Below are positions 5,603-15,284 of a stretch of DNA of 21,100 nucleotides, one piece after another. Source of the DNA: a virus; the IMG/VR virus record IMGVR_UViG_3300031578_000405, positions 1-21,100 of that record; one strand, given 5' to 3'. Both the position numbers and the translations under genes were made by a program. The notes beneath the pieces are model-generated. The model ran no database searches, had not been told where the DNA came from, and worked only from the letters and a program-made list of their open reading frames with translations. How positions within the stretch are numbered: position 1 is the first letter of the stretch; the number at the start of each line of letters is the position of its first letter.

Positions 5603-6607
5603 ATGGCAGTTTTCGCCAACTCCACGGTTTCCGATATTATCGCTACCACGATTCAAAACCGTAGTGGTGAACTAGCGGATAACGTGACTAACAACAATGC
5701 GGCACTTCGTCGCCTGAAAGCAAAGGGCAATGTACGTCCTTTCTCTGGCGGTAATGTGATTTTGGAAGAAATCATGTACACTGATGCCAATTACAACAAC
5801 ACTAACTCGTACTCTGGTTATGAGGTCTTGAACATCAGCCCGAATAGCCCGATCAGTGCGGCTCAGTTTTCCATTCAGCAATACGCATCGGCAGTTACTA
5901 TTAGTGGCCTTGAAATGCTGCAAAACAGCGGCGAAGAAGCCATCATCGACCTGCTGGATGGGCGCATGAAGGTTGCTGAAGCTCAATTGAATAACCGTAT
6001 CGCATCTGACGTTTATCTGGATGGAACTGGTAATTCGGGCAAGAATATCACCGGATTTGGTGCTGCGATCTCTGCGACTCCTACCAACACATACGGCGGC
6101 ATATCTCGTGCAACATGGGCTTTCTGGGCTAACTATGCCTATTCAGGTTTGACAAATGGCGGCGCTGCTGTATCGAGTGCCAATATCCAAACCTATATGA
6201 ACCAAGTTGCTGTAAGCTTGGTTCGTGGTAATGATCGGCCTGACCTGATTATTGCTGACTCGAACTATTACAAACTGTATATGAATTCGCTTCAGGCAAT
6301 TCAGCGCGTACAGTCTGAAGGTGGTGACGGTGGCGTAGGCGCAGGTTTCCCATCGCTGAAATACTTTGGCGCTGGTATGTCTTCTGACGTTGTACTGGAT
6401 GGCGGTATCGGCGCAGCTTCCCCGGCCAATCAAATGCTGTTCCTCAATACGGACTATATTTTCTTCCGTCCGCACAAGGATCGTAATTTCGTCCCCATCG
6501 GTGGTGAGCGCCAAGCGGTCAATCAAGACGCTATCGTGAAACTGATCGGCTGGGCCGGTAACTTGACTTGCTCTGGTGCGCAGTTCCAGGGCATTCTTTC
6601 AGCTTAA
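5603..6607 (+). CDS. Major capsid protein (HK97 fold)
   Basis: This 334-residue protein is the shell subunit. It follows the scaffold gene and has one of the strongest ribosome-binding sites in the window (TTAAGGAGAATT before ATG). Family-like features include NAALRRLKAKGNVRPFSGG (an N-arm-like start), ILEEIMYTDANYNNTNSYSG and TISGLEMLQNSGEEAIIDLL (the spine-helix region near 98-117), then AEAQLNNRIASDVYLDGTGN, and a C-terminal beta-rich part ending in GILSA. There is no N-terminal prohead-protease delta domain and no protease gene nearby, consistent with a separate scaffold. Codons are visibly more biased (frequent CTG, CGT, AAC, GGT) and GC-richer than in neighbouring genes, as expected for the most abundant virion protein. 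Confidence 0.93.
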   Translation: MAVFANSTVSDIIATTIQNRSGELADNVTNNNAALRRLKAKGNVRPFSGGNVILEEIMYTDANYNNTNSYSGYEVLNISPNSPISAAQFSIQQYASAVTISGLEMLQNSGEEAIIDLLDGRMKVAEAQLNNRIASDVYLDGTGNSGKNITGFGAAISATPTNTYGGISRATWAFWANYAYSGLTNGGAAVSSANIQTYMNQVAVSLVRGNDRPDLIIADSNYYKLYMNSLQAIQRVQSEGGDGGVGAGFPSLKYFGAGMSSDVVLDGGIGAASPANQMLFLNTDYIFFRPHKDRNFVPIGGERQAVNQDAIVKLIGWAGNLTCSGAQFQGILSA

Positions 6608-6619
6608 AGGAGAACTATC

Positions 6620-7117
6620 ATGGCGTATGTAATTAAAAATCCTGAAGCTGGCTATCAACCAATCGCCTATACGGATACCACGCAGAATCATCCGTTGGGC
6701 ACTGTCGTCCGCGCTGCTGATCCTACCTATGGAGAAGGTGAATTCATTTACCTGCTTGGGGTAACTTCTACCACTGTCGGTTCTATTGTTACCTATGATG
6801 CTTCTACATACCAAACGGTATTGTCTGCTGTCGGCGGTAATATTCCACGCGCTGTAGCTGTGGCAATGTCGGCAAACGTAGGTTCTCAATATGGCTGGTA
6901 TCAAATTAGCGGCCAGGCTGTTTGTGCCAAGACTTGCACTGTGTCTTTGGCTGCTGGTGCTGCTGTCGGCGTTCTGACTACTGGCTTGATCGCTGGAACT
7001 GGATCTGGCAAGGAAATCGAAGGCGCTGCGGTGGCTGCTGTAGCTTCCGCTACTGCTGGCCGTACCACAGTCAAGGTAATGATTAACCGGCCCCATAAAC
7101 AAGGACGGATTACCTAA
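6620..7117 (+). CDS. Head decoration/capsid cement-like protein
   Basis: This 165-residue protein starts 12 bases after the capsid gene, behind a strong AAAGGAGA ribosome-binding site, and is the last gene before a strong terminator. It is beta-rich and full of Ala, Gly, Thr and Val (GTVVRAADPTYGEGEFIYL, then AAGAAVGVLTTGLIAG), with two cysteines (C105 and C109 region, VCAKTC). The pattern of small beta strands with 'GEGEFIYL.GV' and a Gly/Ala-rich hydrophobic core is typical of the proteins next to the major capsid gene that bind the outer capsid surface and stabilise it. Codon choice resembles that of the capsid gene, so it is likely abundant. The role is inferred from position and composition; an internal head protein is the alternative. 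Confidence 0.75.
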   Translation: MAYVIKNPEAGYQPIAYTDTTQNHPLGTVVRAADPTYGEGEFIYLLGVTSTTVGSIVTYDASTYQTVLSAVGGNIPRAVAVAMSANVGSQYGWYQISGQAVCAKTCTVSLAAGAAVGVLTTGLIAGTGSGKEIEGAAVAAVASATAGRTTVKVMINRPHKQGRIT

Positions 7118-7136: not shown

Positions 7137-7160
7137 CCCCCTCTACGGAGGGGGCTTTTT
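7137..7160 (+). terminator. Rho-independent terminator with UACG tetraloop
   Basis: CCCCCTC (7137-7143) pairs perfectly with GAGGGGG (7148-7154) around the loop TACG, followed by CTTTTT (7155-7160). The seven-base-pair stem is six GC pairs plus one TA pair, and C(UACG)G is one of the exceptionally stable UNCG-type RNA tetraloops. It begins 20 bases after the stop of the decoration-protein gene and ends 22 bases before the start of the next gene. It would separate the highly expressed capsid transcripts from the downstream genes, with read-through providing the rest. Confidence 0.93.
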
Positions 7161-7181
7161 AATACATCATCAGGAGTTAAT

Positions 7182-8537
7182 GTGCAATTACCATATGCAA
7201 ACTTGCAAATAAAACACCAAAACAAGGAAGCAAAGAATCCATTGATTCTTCCTGTTCATTTGATTTGCAATACGTCTGATGAGGAAATTTACTCAAATAT
7301 TCGGATAAACTCGAAAAATAACAGTAATTGGGTCAAATGCGAAGATGAGCATAATGGAGTTGCGATACTGTGCGGTTCCGGCCCAAGTCTGGTTGATTGC
7401 CTGGATGAAATTTGGAAAAAACAGCACGATGGCGGGAAAATATTTGCCATGAATGGAGCGGCTAAATTTCTTTATGACAATGACATTATGCCAGATTATC
7501 AAGTGATGATTGATGCAAGAGAGCAGACTGCCGATCTTATTGGGCCTGCAAATCATCATTTGTTTGCATCCCAAGTACATCCTAAATGCTTTGAAATCGT
7601 GCCGGATGCTCAATTATGGCATTTGCAGGTTGGAAATATAGAAAATGAATTCCCAGAATATAACAATGCTTATGCACTTATAGGCGGCGCTGCATCGGTT
7701 GGAAATACCGCAACGTGTCTTGCCTTCGCTATGGGATACCGTAATTTGCAGATTTATGGATATGATTCTTCCCATAAAAATGCAATGGGACATGCATTTC
7801 ATCAGAAGATGAATGATGGCGATCCATGCGCTATCGTGTCATTTAATGGTAAAGAATACGTTTGCAGTCTTACAATGAAGTTGCAGGCAGAGAAGTTTCA
7901 GGAAACATCAAGGGCATTGCAAGAGTCAGGATGCCATATTGAGGTTCATGGATCTGGATTGCTTCCTGATATGTGGAATACTCCTGTTGAGAATCTTACT
8001 GAACAGGAAAAATATACCCGTATGTGGTCTTATGATGCGTATAGGTCTGTTTCCCCAGGTGAAAATATAGTAGAAACATTCTTCAGGGTAGCCAATCCAG
8101 AAGGAAAAGTTATTGATTATGGTTGCGGAACTGGAAGAGCGGCATTGAAAATAAGCGAAAAATGCGAAGTTCTATTGCTGGATTTCACTACAAACAGCCG
8201 TGATGATAAGGCCGCGCATTTACCGTTTAGACAGGTTGATCTTACCGAAAAGATAAACTATAACTCTGATTATGGTTTGTGTTCTGATGTAATGGAGCAT
8301 ATTCCACCAGATGATGTAAAAAAAGTAATCGAGAATATTATGGAATCATGTGCGAAGGTATTTTTCCAGATAAGCACAGTTCCAGATATATGTGGAGAAA
8401 TAATTGGGCAGCAGCTTCACTTGACAGTCAGGCCGCATAGCTGGTGGAAGAAGTTGTTTGTTAGTTTTGGGTACATAATCAAATGGGAAGAATGTTACCC
8501 GTCTGAGTCGCAATTTTACATTTTAAGAAAGGAATAA
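7182..8537 (+). CDS. DUF115/MptE-like domain fused to SAM-dependent methyltransferase
   Basis: This 451-residue protein has two enzyme-like domains. Residues about 58-265 resemble the DUF115 family (archaeal MptE pterin diphosphokinase, flagellin Maf glycosyltransferases) and, more distantly, GT42 sialyltransferases: a nucleotide-binding-type CGSGPSL (64-70), KIFAMNGAAKFLYDNDIMPDY (86-106), GGAASVGNTAT (168-178) and IYGYDSS (191-197). Residues about 308-451 form a class I methyltransferase: motif I VIDYGCGTGRA (310-320), acidic D334 ending the next strand, QVDL (351-354), and CSDVMEHIPPDDV (367-379). The start is a GTG at 7182 with AGGAG five bases upstream; an ATG two bases earlier is out of frame. 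The gene lies right after the terminator, inside the virion operon, and its codons are AT-richer than the capsid gene. Substrate is unknown; a role in modifying glycans or virion/host surface molecules is inference. Confidence 0.85.
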   Translation: MQLPYANLQIKHQNKEAKNPLILPVHLICNTSDEEIYSNIRINSKNNSNWVKCEDEHNGVAILCGSGPSLVDCLDEIWKKQHDGGKIFAMNGAAKFLYDNDIMPDYQVMIDAREQTADLIGPANHHLFASQVHPKCFEIVPDAQLWHLQVGNIENEFPEYNNAYALIGGAASVGNTATCLAFAMGYRNLQIYGYDSSHKNAMGHAFHQKMNDGDPCAIVSFNGKEYVCSLTMKLQAEKFQETSRALQESGCHIEVHGSGLLPDMWNTPVENLTEQEKYTRMWSYDAYRSVSPGENIVETFFRVANPEGKVIDYGCGTGRAALKISEKCEVLLLDFTTNSRDDKAAHLPFRQVDLTEKINYNSDYGLCSDVMEHIPPDDVKKVIENIMESCAKVFFQISTVPDICGEIIGQQLHLTVRPHSWWKKLFVSFGYIIKWEECYPSESQFYILRKE

Positions 8538-11316: not shown

Positions 11317-12213
11317 ATGCCATTGGGTCAGATTTTAGCTGATACACTTTCGCAATGGAAGCAGAATGCACAAACAGGAATGCAAAACGCATGGGATAGA
11401 ACATATCCTGCCAGAGTACAAGTAGGCGCGTTAATGTCTGGTGATCCACAGACAGCCGCTAAAGTATTGAAAGACCAAATAGCCGCACTTACACCAGAAG
11501 GTGTGAATAATGCGATTATAAATTTTGGTGTTGGGATGGTTGGGAATATAAAGGGGATTAATCCAGTAAATAAATTTTCAGGATTGTATGATGCAATGGT
11601 TAAAAGTGGAAATGAAGAACTTGCAATAAAAAAACAATCTCCAAATTTATGGACACCGGACAATCAAGAACTTGGAGTAGACGATGCTATCAATGATATA
11701 GTTTATCCAAAAAATACGGGAAAAAAATATCCAGACCCTTTACCAGAATATCAAGATAAGTATGGAGATTTGGGAGGAGAAAAATACGATGCACTTGAAG
11801 GTAAAATATCATCAGAATTAAGGGATAAGTGGATAGAAGAAAACCATCCAAACTTTACTGATGTAACAGATTTATATAATGCATCTCCGAACGAACAAGG
11901 AAGCGCATTTGAGGCGGGGTTAAATCATCTTGGCGTGAAATATACACCTAATTATAGTGCTAGTTCTAAATCAAACTATTTTTATGTGGAAAATCCAATA
12001 ACGAAACAGACTGATAAAATAAGATTCGCTACGCACGCAAAACAAGCATTTGATGCAGATGAAGCGACATTAAATGTAAATCCAGAAGGTGGGATTAGTA
12101 GTCATACATGGGATGACGCGCAGTCCTATTTAGAAAATTTACTGGAACATAATGGGCAGCCATTAGATAAACAAATAGCCGCACAACAATTACAGAAAGC
12201 AGTTGCACAATAA
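11317..12213 (+). CDS. AT-rich protein with polyvalent-protein-like C-terminal domain, unknown function
   Basis: This 298-residue protein follows a GGGAG site six bases before its ATG and overlaps the next gene by one base (TAATG). The N-terminus (about 1-80: LADTLSQWKQNAQTGMQNAW, YPARVQVGALMSGDPQTAA) looks like a virion-linked helical segment. The middle (about 85-190) is charged and has YPDPLPEYQDKYG and EGKISSELRDKWIEENHPNF. Residues about 200-275 contain SSKSNYFYVENP, then DKIRFATHAKQ and a closing helix SSHTWDDAQSYLENLL. The pattern S.Y.YV.NP......KIR...H resembles a small domain found in phage and plasmid 'large polyvalent' proteins. Codons and base composition are AT-richer than in flanking genes, with A-runs from about 11500 to 12050. 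P22 has no counterpart here. Function unknown; effector or injected-cargo role is inference. Confidence 0.7.
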   Translation: MPLGQILADTLSQWKQNAQTGMQNAWDRTYPARVQVGALMSGDPQTAAKVLKDQIAALTPEGVNNAIINFGVGMVGNIKGINPVNKFSGLYDAMVKSGNEELAIKKQSPNLWTPDNQELGVDDAINDIVYPKNTGKKYPDPLPEYQDKYGDLGGEKYDALEGKISSELRDKWIEENHPNFTDVTDLYNASPNEQGSAFEAGLNHLGVKYTPNYSASSKSNYFYVENPITKQTDKIRFATHAKQAFDADEATLNVNPEGGISSHTWDDAQSYLENLLEHNGQPLDKQIAAQQLQKAVAQ

Positions 12214-13760
12214 TGGCAACACAAACAACCTCGATAACCGCACCGACTGGCGGATGGAACGATAGAGACGCATGGGGAGAAATGCCTCCAAATGATGCTA
12301 TTACTCTAACTAATTTCTATCCGACTCCATCAGATGTGATGCAGCGTAAAGGGTATACAAACTTTGCAACAGGGTTGCCAGGACAGGTTAATAGCGTAAT
12401 AAATTATGCAGCACCTACCGGACAGTTTTTATTTGCTGCTTCTGTTACATCAGTTTATAACGTAACGGCTGGAGGTGCTGTTGGTGCTGCCGTGGTAACT
12501 GGCTTAACATCAGATAAATTCAAATACCAGAATATCAGCAATTCAGGTGGGCATTGGCTTTTAATGGTCAATGGAGCTGATAAGCTACATGGGTATTCAG
12601 GTTCTGCATGGTGGGTGGATGGCGATGGAGCGCATGATATAACCGGATTTGATACATCCAAGGCCACTAATATCATGTATCACCAGAATCGCATCTGGAT
12701 GGTTGAAAAATCAACCTTGCATGTTTGGTATCTTGGGATAGGAGCAATAGCCGGTGCAGCTACTCAATTTGATTTAAGCAATGTAGCCCGTAAAGGCGGC
12801 TATCTTGTAGGAATGGATAGCTGGACGATCGATGCTGGCGACGGTATGAACAATTACGCCGTATTTTATACATCAATGGGCGAAATAATAGTATATACAG
12901 GCGTTGACCCATCATCTGCTACAACTTGGTCATTGACTGGTGTTTGGGCATTAGGCGCACCAGTTGGCAATCGCTGTTCTATGAAATGGGGCGGTGATTT
13001 ATTGCTTATTACGCTGGATGGACTTGTACCAATGGCTCAAGCATTACAATCATCTCGCCTTGATCCGCGCATTAATTTGACTGATAAGATTTATATGGCA
13101 ATTTCAGCAGCTACTCAGGCGTATAACGGTAATTTTGGATGGGATTTGCTTTATTATGCAAAAGCAAACATGCTAATCCTTAATATTCCTATTGGTGTAG
13201 GTTCGCAGCAACAATATGTAATGAATACCATCACTAAGCAATGGTCAAATTTCACTGGCTGGAATGCAAACTGCTGGTGTCTGTTCAATGATGAGCCTTA
13301 TTTTGGTGGAAATGGGGTAGTTTGCAAGGCATGGGATGGATTTTCTGACAATAATACAAACATCAGTTCATTGGCACAGCAGGCATTTAACTACCTTGTA
13401 CCAATGGCCGGCGCTGGTCAAACTGGCGGAACAAGGGCTGTTCAGAAGCGCGTAAGCATGGCAAGGCCGATATTGTTCAGCAATGGCTCTCCAGCAGCTT
13501 CCATGAACGTAAATATGGACTTTGTAACAACTCCACCGACTGGAGCATTGACTTTTTCCGGATCTTCATCTTTTGGAACCTGGGATTCTTCAACTTGGGG
13601 CAATGCCAATTGGGGATCAGGACTTAATGTTAGCAAAAACTGGTATGGAGTACAGGGCATAGGTTATTGCATGTCGATTAATTTACAAATAGCTTCGCAA
13701 GGAATAGAAACTCATTGGGCGGCTACAGATATTGTCTATGAGACTGGCGGCATACTTTGA
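12213..13760 (+). CDS. Large tail hub/stabilization protein (P22 gp10-like position)
   Basis: This 515-residue protein follows the adaptor region and occupies the gp10 slot of P22, where the protein plugs the portal vertex after DNA packaging. It is beta-rich, with repeated short strands and many aromatic residues, as in a propeller-like fold. Family-like signatures include TGGWNDRDAWGEMPPNDAIT at the N-terminus, LTNFYPTPSDVMQRKGYTNF, then YHQNRIWMVEKSTLHVWYLG and NYAVFYTSMGEIIVYTGVDP. The C-terminal part (about 430-500) is rich in Ser, Gly, Trp and Asn (FGTWDSSTWGNANWGSGL). The start overlaps the previous stop (TAATG), so it is coupled. The N-terminal signatures are common in proteins annotated as phage stabilization or tail proteins of podoviruses. 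Confidence in the family is high; the exact correspondence to gp10 is inferred from order. Confidence 0.82.
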   Translation: MATQTTSITAPTGGWNDRDAWGEMPPNDAITLTNFYPTPSDVMQRKGYTNFATGLPGQVNSVINYAAPTGQFLFAASVTSVYNVTAGGAVGAAVVTGLTSDKFKYQNISNSGGHWLLMVNGADKLHGYSGSAWWVDGDGAHDITGFDTSKATNIMYHQNRIWMVEKSTLHVWYLGIGAIAGAATQFDLSNVARKGGYLVGMDSWTIDAGDGMNNYAVFYTSMGEIIVYTGVDPSSATTWSLTGVWALGAPVGNRCSMKWGGDLLLITLDGLVPMAQALQSSRLDPRINLTDKIYMAISAATQAYNGNFGWDLLYYAKANMLILNIPIGVGSQQQYVMNTITKQWSNFTGWNANCWCLFNDEPYFGGNGVVCKAWDGFSDNNTNISSLAQQAFNYLVPMAGAGQTGGTRAVQKRVSMARPILFSNGSPAASMNVNMDFVTTPPTGALTFSGSSSFGTWDSSTWGNANWGSGLNVSKNWYGVQGIGYCMSINLQIASQGIETHWAATDIVYETGGIL

Positions 13761-14179
13761 AGAAAATCATCACGGATCAGAATTACCGTGTAGGGGAATG
13801 GGTTTCTGAAAGGACTAATTCAACATTTAATGTAAATAGCATTTCATGTATTGGACTTGAAGAAAATGGAGAATTGATAGCTGGAGTTATATATGATGGA
13901 TATAACACTGCTTCGATTGCCATGCACGTAGCTGTAGAAGGTATGATTAATCGTGAATTTTTATGGTTTTGTTTTTATTATCCATTTGAACAATTAAATG
14001 TTCATAAAATTATTGGAATGGTTGAAGAAACAAATTCTAATGCAAGAAAATTAGATGAACATTTAGGGTTCGAACTTGAAACAAGAATAAAGAATGCGTG
14101 TATCAATGGCGACCTGTTGATTTACTCTATGACAAAGGATCAGTGCAGGCATTTAAGGATTAAACATGGGACAAAATAA
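13757..14179 (+). CDS. GNAT-family N-acetyltransferase
   Basis: This 140-residue protein is a phage-type GNAT enzyme. The C-terminal half shows the characteristic sequence HKIIGMVEETNSNARKLDEHLGFE (two adjacent pieces, residues 83-106), in which N-A-x-K-L-D-x-H-LGFE is the GNAT alpha4-beta6 region, and GDLLIYSMTKDQCRHL (118-133) at the end. The usual R/Q-x-x-G-x-G/A acetyl-CoA loop is not clearly present, so activity is uncertain. The start is TTG at 13757, sharing TTGA with the previous stop; no in-frame ATG occurs before residue 56. It overlaps the next gene by 14 bases. The middle (13940-14060) is strikingly AT-rich compared with its neighbours, suggesting transfer. GNAT genes occur in similar positions in podovirus-like operons; the target molecule is unknown. 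Confidence 0.85.
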   Translation: MKKIITDQNYRVGEWVSERTNSTFNVNSISCIGLEENGELIAGVIYDGYNTASIAMHVAVEGMINREFLWFCFYYPFEQLNVHKIIGMVEETNSNARKLDEHLGFELETRIKNACINGDLLIYSMTKDQCRHLRIKHGTK

Positions 14180-15284
14180 TAAGCAATCTCCTCCACCGCC
14201 TCCAGATTATACTAAAGCCGCACAAGCTACTGCGGCGGGGAATTTATCATTAGCGCAAGAACAGCAGGCCGCCAATAATGTCAATCAGATTACTCCGTAT
14301 GGGAATCTGACATACTCAAACTCACCAACACAGACTCCTGATATTTCTGCTTATCAAGCTGCTCTGCAATCATATCAATCAAATCCTAGTGGATGGATGT
14401 CACGTAATAAAGGTGTTGCTCCAAACCAAGCTGATTACATGATGAGTACGCCTCACTGGACGGCAACACAAACCCTTTCCCCTGCCGAACAGCAATTATT
14501 TGATAAAGGAAATACGCTAAATTCCACTTTGTTAGATACGGCCCAAACCGGCCTTAATTCAGCACAAGGAATACTACAGAATCCAACTGTAGATATGAGC
14601 AAACTTCCTTCCACTGGCATTAATCCAGGTCAGCAATATCAGGATGCGATGATGCAGCAATTGCAGCCGCAAATAGATCGGGCAAATAATCAGCTTCAGT
14701 CTAGACTTGCATCTCAGGGTGTAACTCCAGGTTCTGCTGCTTACAATGATGCGCTTCAGCAACAATCCCAATCAAATAATAATCTATTGGCTCAGGCTAC
14801 CACTTCAGGAATGGGGATGGGGTTACAAGCTAACCAGCAGGCTTATGCACAGGCTAATAATAACCTGATGCAGCCTATCAATATCATTGATGCACTCAGG
14901 ACCGGAACTCAGGTTCAAAGCCCATCTTATGCTTCAGCGGCGCAACAATCTCCAGTACAAGGAGCAGACCTTTTGGGCGCATTGCAAGGTAATTACAACG
15001 CTCAACTTGGCAATGTTAATGCCAATAATGCTACTTCAGCTGGTCAATTGGGGACGGTTGCAGGGCTTGGAGCTGCTGCTTTGCTTTCTGACATAAGACT
15101 TAAAAAGAACATTTCGCGTATCGGTACTCACCCGCTTGGGATAGGTATCTATGATTATGACTATTTATGGGGTAAACACTCCGTGGGAGTAATGGCGCAA
15201 GAGGTATTGAAAGTCAAACCTTCTGCCGTTCTAGTTCATCCATCAGGCTACCTGATGGTAAATTATGGAGAACTTCATGTTTAA
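14166..15284 (+). CDS. Virion protein with short S74-type (intramolecular chaperone-like) C-terminus
   Basis: This 372-residue protein overlaps the GNAT gene by 14 bases and has AAGGA seven bases before its ATG. The N-terminus SPPPPPDYTKAAQATAAGNL is typical of phage internal or tail-tip proteins. The bulk (20-290) is Gln/Asn/Ala/Ser-rich with coiled-coil-like stretches (QLQPQIDRANNQLQSRLASQ, then GVTPGSAAYNDALQQQ). The last 65 residues begin at S308 with SDIRLKKNISRIG, followed by YDYDYLWGK, VGVMAQEVLKVKPSAV and GYLMVNY. This matches the start of peptidase S74 / intramolecular chaperone domains, where a Ser at the SD site and a following Lys take part in self-cleavage. Those domains are usually over 100 residues; this is a minimal form. 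The role is probably assembly of an ejection or tail-tip protein. Cleavage here is not established. Confidence 0.78.
   Translation: MGQNNKQSPPPPPDYTKAAQATAAGNLSLAQEQQAANNVNQITPYGNLTYSNSPTQTPDISAYQAALQSYQSNPSGWMSRNKGVAPNQADYMMSTPHWTATQTLSPAEQQLFDKGNTLNSTLLDTAQTGLNSAQGILQNPTVDMSKLPSTGINPGQQYQDAMMQQLQPQIDRANNQLQSRLASQGVTPGSAAYNDALQQQSQSNNNLLAQATTSGMGMGLQANQQAYAQANNNLMQPINIIDALRTGTQVQSPSYASAAQQSPVQGADLLGALQGNYNAQLGNVNANNATSAGQLGTVAGLGAAALLSDIRLKKNISRIGTHPLGIGIYDYDYLWGKHSVGVMAQEVLKVKPSAVLVHPSGYLMVNYGELHV

Follow-up and report, generated by a model that had tools for sequence, protein, structure and literature searches.

The gene at positions 7182-8537 of the window, that is, of the whole 21.1 kb stretch of DNA analysed here, encodes a DUF115/MptE-like domain fused to a class I methyltransferase, and co-inheritance strongly indicates that the partner of the DUF115 domain is one head protein, encoded immediately upstream of the fusion. 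In many phages the enzyme follows this head protein in its inheritance but not the other capsid components, a pattern suggesting that it attaches a (methylated) sugar to the head protein. We consider it fairly probable that the fusion is a virion-protein glycosyltransferase acting on the adjacent head protein with a host-supplied sugar and optional methylation. The window is the entire virus record, a linear fragment, and its relevant features are as follows.

6620..7117, + strand: head protein, 165 aa, decoration-like, the proposed substrate or partner (phrog_29386 virion structural protein, E 6e-25)
6929..6931, + strand: Lys104 codon of the head gene, encoding a residue specific to the DUF115-linked clade
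6998..7075, + strand: residues 127-152 of the head protein, C-terminal and rich in Ser/Thr, a candidate region for O-glycosylation from Ser/Thr counts across the clade
7137..7159, + strand: intrinsic terminator-like hairpin between the head gene and the fusion, 7 bp stem (7137-7154) with 6 GC pairs, and T run
7172-7176, + strand: ribosome binding site AGGAG, seen in the sequence
7182-8537, + strand: DUF115–methyltransferase fusion gene, 451 aa, GTG start
7182..7979, + strand: DUF115/Maf-like (PF01973) domain, aa 1-266 of the fusion (Pfam, sequence and profile matches, model, conserved residues)
7989..8534, + strand: class I SAM methyltransferase domain, aa 270-451 of the fusion (Pfam, model, motif conservation)

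Domains and setting of the fusion protein

The gene order is major head protein (5603-6607), head gene (6620-7117), fusion gene (7182-8537) and downstream virion genes, and homologues of the fusion align from the same start position. In Pfam, the N-terminal half matched MptE-like PF01973 (aa 54-199, 70.5 bits against a cut-off of 34.6, E 2e-19), as did 82 of 83 relatives at E 0.001 or better, and the best match of the C-terminal half was Methyltransf_25 (aa 310-389, 28.2 bits against a cut-off of 27, E 3e-6). These matches and the gene order confirmed the claim of an earlier note on this DNA that a DUF115/MptE-like domain is fused to a methyltransferase within the virion genes. As the fusion recurs across loci (55/76 unique DUF115-bearing loci in a first count and, among the matches listed, 75/134 in the extended set), chance or an assembly error is ruled out. 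No relatives of the DUF115 half were detected by tblastn in the INPHARED phage collection; relatives of the fusion are named MptE-like proteins of uncultured phages in BFVD, and a single host-side record, a Hyphomicrobium MAG, was obtained in one scan of genome contigs. No study of DUF115 within a phage virion operon was found in the literature searched.

An AlphaFold model of the fusion, calculated from a 68-row alignment that was built without the siphovirus methyltransferase row described below, had a mean pLDDT of 93 and a pTM of 0.83; an earlier 6-row alignment (pLDDT 56) was discarded. Residues 2-266 of the model superimposed on residues 239-502 of the Maf structure 5mu5 (Z 21.8, rmsd 3.2, 220 residues), which was also the best solved relative of this half by sequence (E 1e-6 with the single sequence, 7.5e-16 with the profile). 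The central PF01973 domain is therefore of the Maf type, and the likeness to DUF115/Maf noticed earlier, together with the presence of a corresponding fold, is borne out by Pfam, profile and model alike. Five residues of this half are nearly invariant, namely S69 (67/67), N91 (66/67), D111 (67/67), D195 (68/68) and H204 (67/68). The central domain of Maf has been described as resembling Cst-II (PMC11339370); GT42 (Cst-II) was absent from the structure matches listed, the rows of which were filled by methyltransferases, and from the sequence matches listed.

The fusion shares with Maf/PseD the domain fold and the aligned GxGPS, PD and GxD motifs, and in each case the gene accompanies that of a single abundant surface structural protein, which is the proposed target. 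Unlike Maf/PseD, it has neither the Maf N-terminal domain nor the flagellin/FliS-like C-terminal domain, so that the full-length Maf architecture is not present and the C-terminal half is a methyltransferase instead; the phage enzymes carry a methyltransferase or glycosyltransferase, and their partner is a phage head protein. Flagellin modification protein PseD (NF050051) was the best NCBIfam match (E 1e-9), but its score of 37.1 bits is far below the cut-off of 670, and hence the fusion is not a Maf proper. MptE (8sd5), a pterin diphosphokinase of the same Pfam family, gave a weak profile match (E 4e-5, residues 32-195), weaker than that of Maf, and the phage gene lies in a virion operon and has no pterin pathway context. 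The genomic context thus speaks against pterin diphosphokinase activity.

The C-terminal half (residues ∼270-451 of the model) matched SAM methyltransferases with Z 17-19 (up to 18.8). Like other class I enzymes (Methyltransf_25/11; DhpI, TehB, UbiG-like) it has motif I, GxGxG at 314-318 (G314, G316 and G318), with an acidic residue, D334, and these positions were conserved in 59/59 aligned members; unlike those enzymes, the phage methyltransferases are fused to or encoded beside DUF115. The half is thus a full class I methyltransferase, as first read, and its catalytic motif is kept in homologues.

The hairpin at 7137-7154 was the best + strand match of a terminator scan and is real in the sequence. 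The earlier note had further proposed that this terminator separates the expression of the fusion from that of the capsid genes. Among the matches listed, however, a terminator-like hairpin follows the head gene in only 28/134 DUF115-bearing loci, and in 19/49 loci without DUF115, and no promoter-like site was found in the window between the hairpin and the fusion start, so that separate expression is not supported. A partial terminator that lowers the amount of enzyme relative to the abundant structural protein would fit these data.

Domain partners of DUF115 in related loci

The methyltransferase, presented at first as one of two jointly acting halves, turned out to be an optional addition, as DUF115 also occurs alone or with other partner domains. 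Among the matches listed, the 134 DUF115-bearing loci comprised 75 DUF115–methyltransferase fusions, 30 with DUF115 alone, five with the fusion and a second DUF115, nine in which DUF115 is preceded by another domain (in L077 and L093, a glycosyltransferase of family 2), and eight with a preceding domain and further C-terminal sequence, which was Methyltransf_24 in the four scanned; one had DUF115 with some other C-terminus, and six were cut by the contig end. Second copies of DUF115 were seen in L016, L037, L038, L067 and L075. On the DUF115 tree, the presence of the methyltransferase switches 5-6 times. L103 is similar in its N-terminal part to phage proteins with a glycosyltransferase annotation, and a NAD epimerase-like gene lies beside the glycosyltransferase–DUF115 gene of L093.

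The two halves were also found as adjacent separate genes, an arrangement which the earlier note had suggested looking for. In siphovirus MW202621 and its relatives L106-L109, a methyltransferase of 185-191 aa, which in MW202621 is 39% identical to the C-terminal half of the fusion and includes the linker ahead of the domain, is encoded directly downstream of the major capsid gene, and its gene has a 4-nt overlap with that of a 230-324 aa DUF115-like protein. The latter has GGGPSL, N and GFD motifs and a modest hhalign match (69%) to the DUF115 half; the order of the halves is thus reversed relative to the fusion.

Several neighbouring genes in these loci were also recorded. The second DUF115 gene of L016 (2368-3285), a divergent copy with 25% identity, precedes the scaffold and capsid genes; next to it is a gene for a protein of 475 aa, which showed a weak carbohydrate-binding match. 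Additional ORFs of 170-220 aa with no Pfam match occur between the head gene and the fusion in L029 (6559-7209), L060 (6542-7159), L066 (4660-5184) and L075 (5589-6170), and are possibly further parts of the cassette. Two short ORFs separate the head gene from the glycosyltransferase–DUF115 gene in L093 (6640-7574), the first with a NAD-dependent epimerase match, and they look like a split or frame-shifted sugar-nucleotide enzyme.

Further downstream in the window, the ORF at 13757-14179 resembles a GNAT acetyltransferase (Acetyltransf_4, E 5e-4; weak PseH match) and its place is conserved in relatives. It apparently occurs in Myxococcus phages Mx8 and Mx9 too (Mx8 p53, noted as potential holin; Mx9 p87, acyltransferase), and because it is found also without DUF115 it is probably not part of the cassette. 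The PHROG label of 12213-13760, amidase (lysis), may be wrong, since the positional counterpart in Mx9 is named head closure protein and the gene is a conserved member of the virion operon. The product of 14166-15284 is a virion protein and not a long tail fibre; its C-terminus holds SDIRLKKNI, which we read as the beginning of an intramolecular chaperone motif of the S74 type.

Co-inheritance of DUF115 with the head protein

The 165-aa head protein, which presumably sits on the capsid surface, is related to the ‘major virion structural protein’ of Mx8 and Mx9, and these phages have the same gene order and no DUF115 gene. The structural module of the Mx8/Pr podoviruses has been described with mention of neither glycosyltransferases nor methyltransferases (PMC10386132). 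Matches of the head protein in the PDB were designed repeat proteins, none of its stretches passed alone, and these matches were taken as chance.

Loci were collected from IMG/VR in scans that used either the enzyme or the head protein, taking the best 80 matches of each of three head-protein scans together with the loci of the enzyme scans. This yielded 183 distinct head-protein loci in which a DUF115 gene was found or the downstream sequence was long enough, 134 with and 49 without DUF115. Among the matches listed, DUF115 was present downstream in all 134 members of one head-protein clade and in 0/49 loci outside it, and a third head-protein scan, seeded at the clade boundary, produced no mixed cases among its listed matches. 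In quick trees calculated without bootstrap, the DUF115 label changes once on the head-protein tree, where the separating branch had an SH-aLRT of 98 (96 with a mixture model and 125 rows), whereas the capsid-protein tree requires 15-16 changes, of which 13-14 are forced by well supported branches, and the tree of the downstream tail/neck protein, which has long branches, requires six, four of them forced.

Pairwise distances gave the same picture. For 60 de-duplicated loci, head-protein and DUF115 distances correlated with a rho of 0.63, which 0/2000 permutations reached and which was still 0.63 after capsid distances had been removed; the values for head protein versus capsid (0.08) and DUF115 versus capsid (−0.02) were not significant, and capsid versus neck gave 0.53. 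When loci were chosen by the head protein only, the corresponding values were 0.55 (head–DUF115), 0.08 (head–capsid), −0.01 (DUF115–capsid) and 0.50 (capsid–neck). The methyltransferase adds little beyond DUF115 (partial rho 0.09). In a comparison of L028 with the window, the head protein stood at 85% and the enzyme at 71%, and the capsid protein, which is encoded between the portal and the head protein, at 37%. Fourfold-degenerate sites were saturated while protein identity was 56-71%, indicating strong purifying selection on the fusion and an old linkage under constraint; this saturation also ruled out a recent horizontal transfer of the head protein–enzyme pair. What emerges is a putative glycosyltransferase gene that is co-inherited with a virion protein gene. 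The target had previously been sought in a virion or a host surface molecule; co-inheritance favours the former, in the shape of a single virion protein, the upstream head protein.

Proposed modification of the head protein and its alternatives

We propose that the head protein would be modified during assembly in the host cytoplasm. The DUF115/Maf-like half would transfer a sugar to it from an activated donor made by the host; as in Maf enzymes, this donor would most likely be a nonulosonic or Kdo-type sugar activated with CMP. The methyltransferase half, where present, would then O-methylate the transferred sugar. The altered capsid surface might be of benefit through, for example, stability, adhesion or masking. 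The acceptor would be a Ser or Thr near residues 127-131 and 146-152, towards the C-terminus of the head protein, and less likely Lys104. Of the transfer and methylation of an activated group postulated in the earlier note, the domains, folds and motifs are thus in place, and the reaction itself we infer. The donors of Maf enzymes are CMP-nonulosonic acids, and at least one of these enzymes additionally accepts CMP-Kdo, with transfer to Ser/Thr (PMC11339370); by analogy, Kdo is suggested as donor in hosts without nonulosonic acids. Phage-encoded CMP-sugar synthesis was sought in 27 phage records, many of them fragments, and neither NeuB nor CTP_transf_3 (CMP-sugar synthetase) genes were found (0/27 each), so that a host donor must be assumed.

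Among the matches listed, Ser/Thr occurred within residues 127-131 in 132/134 DUF115-linked head proteins against 3/49 others, and at position 150 in 129/134 against 0/49. The single most clade-specific residue was Lys104, with K in 133/134 linked head proteins and 0/49 others at the same offset (among the matches listed); it is absent from L101, in which the enzyme is intact. As the head-protein split is a single event, such residues are markers and not a replicated test, and cannot alone name the acceptor. Lys104 was rejected as a proven acceptor, because the trait arose once on the tree and a lysine is found in the KAPN clade as well, one position earlier. In this clade, formed by the DUF115-less head proteins L133-L172, the motif VKAPN looks invariant.

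The clade specificity of Lys104 would also be expected if the head protein were modified other than by glycosylation, either with a (di)phosphate or nucleotide-linked group or with another group accepted by this lysine, and the inclusion of 6-hydroxymethylpterin diphosphokinases in PF01973 and the weak profile match to 8sd5 are in line with such a reaction. We regard this as unlikely, however, as the Maf match is far stronger in both sequence and structure, the domain partners of DUF115 are glycosyltransferases and methyltransferases, and L101 does without Lys104. Glycosyl chemistry is favoured by the family-2 glycosyltransferase fused to DUF115 in L077 and L093, the epimerase-like neighbour in L093 and the likeness of L103 to glycosyltransferases.

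Adjacent genes travel together, and the head gene could therefore be linked to the enzyme by neighbourhood only, the target being a host surface molecule such as LPS or flagellin, e.g. in superinfection exclusion. Bacterial DUF115 proteins do act on flagellin (PMC11339370), and one relative of the fusion gave a weak match to WaaZ-type Kdo transferases. But the capsid gene, separated from the head gene by 12 nt in the window, is closer to it than the fusion gene, at 64 nt, and is nevertheless decoupled, and among the matches listed no head protein of the clade lacked DUF115 and none outside had it, which makes a host surface target improbable.

Co-inheritance would also be expected if the enzyme bound the head protein without modifying it, and docking alone could account for the strict association with the clade, the virion-attached enzyme then acting on host surface glycans or other molecules. 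Maf-type enzymes, however, require a cytoplasmic activated donor that is absent outside the cell (PMC11339370), and no virion-anchor domain was found in the AlphaFold model; we give this possibility little credence. That the protein is degenerate or purely structural without catalysis, or a metabolic gene captured at random, is very improbable, for even if no activity of a phage member is known from the literature searched, the motif residues of both domains are near-invariant and purifying selection is strong.

Glycosylation of the head protein by the fusion would have a parallel in the mycobacteriophages, in which phage-encoded enzymes likewise modify virion proteins. The glycosyltransferases reported in PMC12363180, which cites Freeman et al. 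2023, are those of Che8 (gp110), Corndog (gp38) and Myrna, and the virion proteins that they modify are the capsid and the tail tube. To our knowledge these glycosyltransferases are not of the DUF115/Maf type, and in contrast to them the enzyme described here is linked with a distinct head protein, and the phages are Mx8-related podoviruses. Phage virion glycosylation as such is therefore known; new are the tie of a DUF115 domain to the preceding head-protein gene and its swappable methyltransferase and glycosyltransferase modules.

We see about an even chance that these genes make up a modular cassette dedicated to virion glycosylation. In this reading the head-protein clade could not persist unless accompanied by a Maf-like enzyme of its own, both would move between capsid lineages as a unit, and accessory domains (two methyltransferase types, a glycosyltransferase and a second DUF115) would diversify the capsid glycan. 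No such cassette was reported in the literature searched. The proposal is testable, as it singles out an enzyme, its substrate protein and, within the latter, a short candidate stretch. If true, it may offer an added route to glycan-decorated capsids for display work, and it would explain why, of all the virion proteins, this head protein is conserved best while the capsid protein beneath it changes. The system would then be a phage capsid counterpart of flagellin glycosylation, widespread in environmental podoviruses and overlooked because its proteins carry pterin kinase names.
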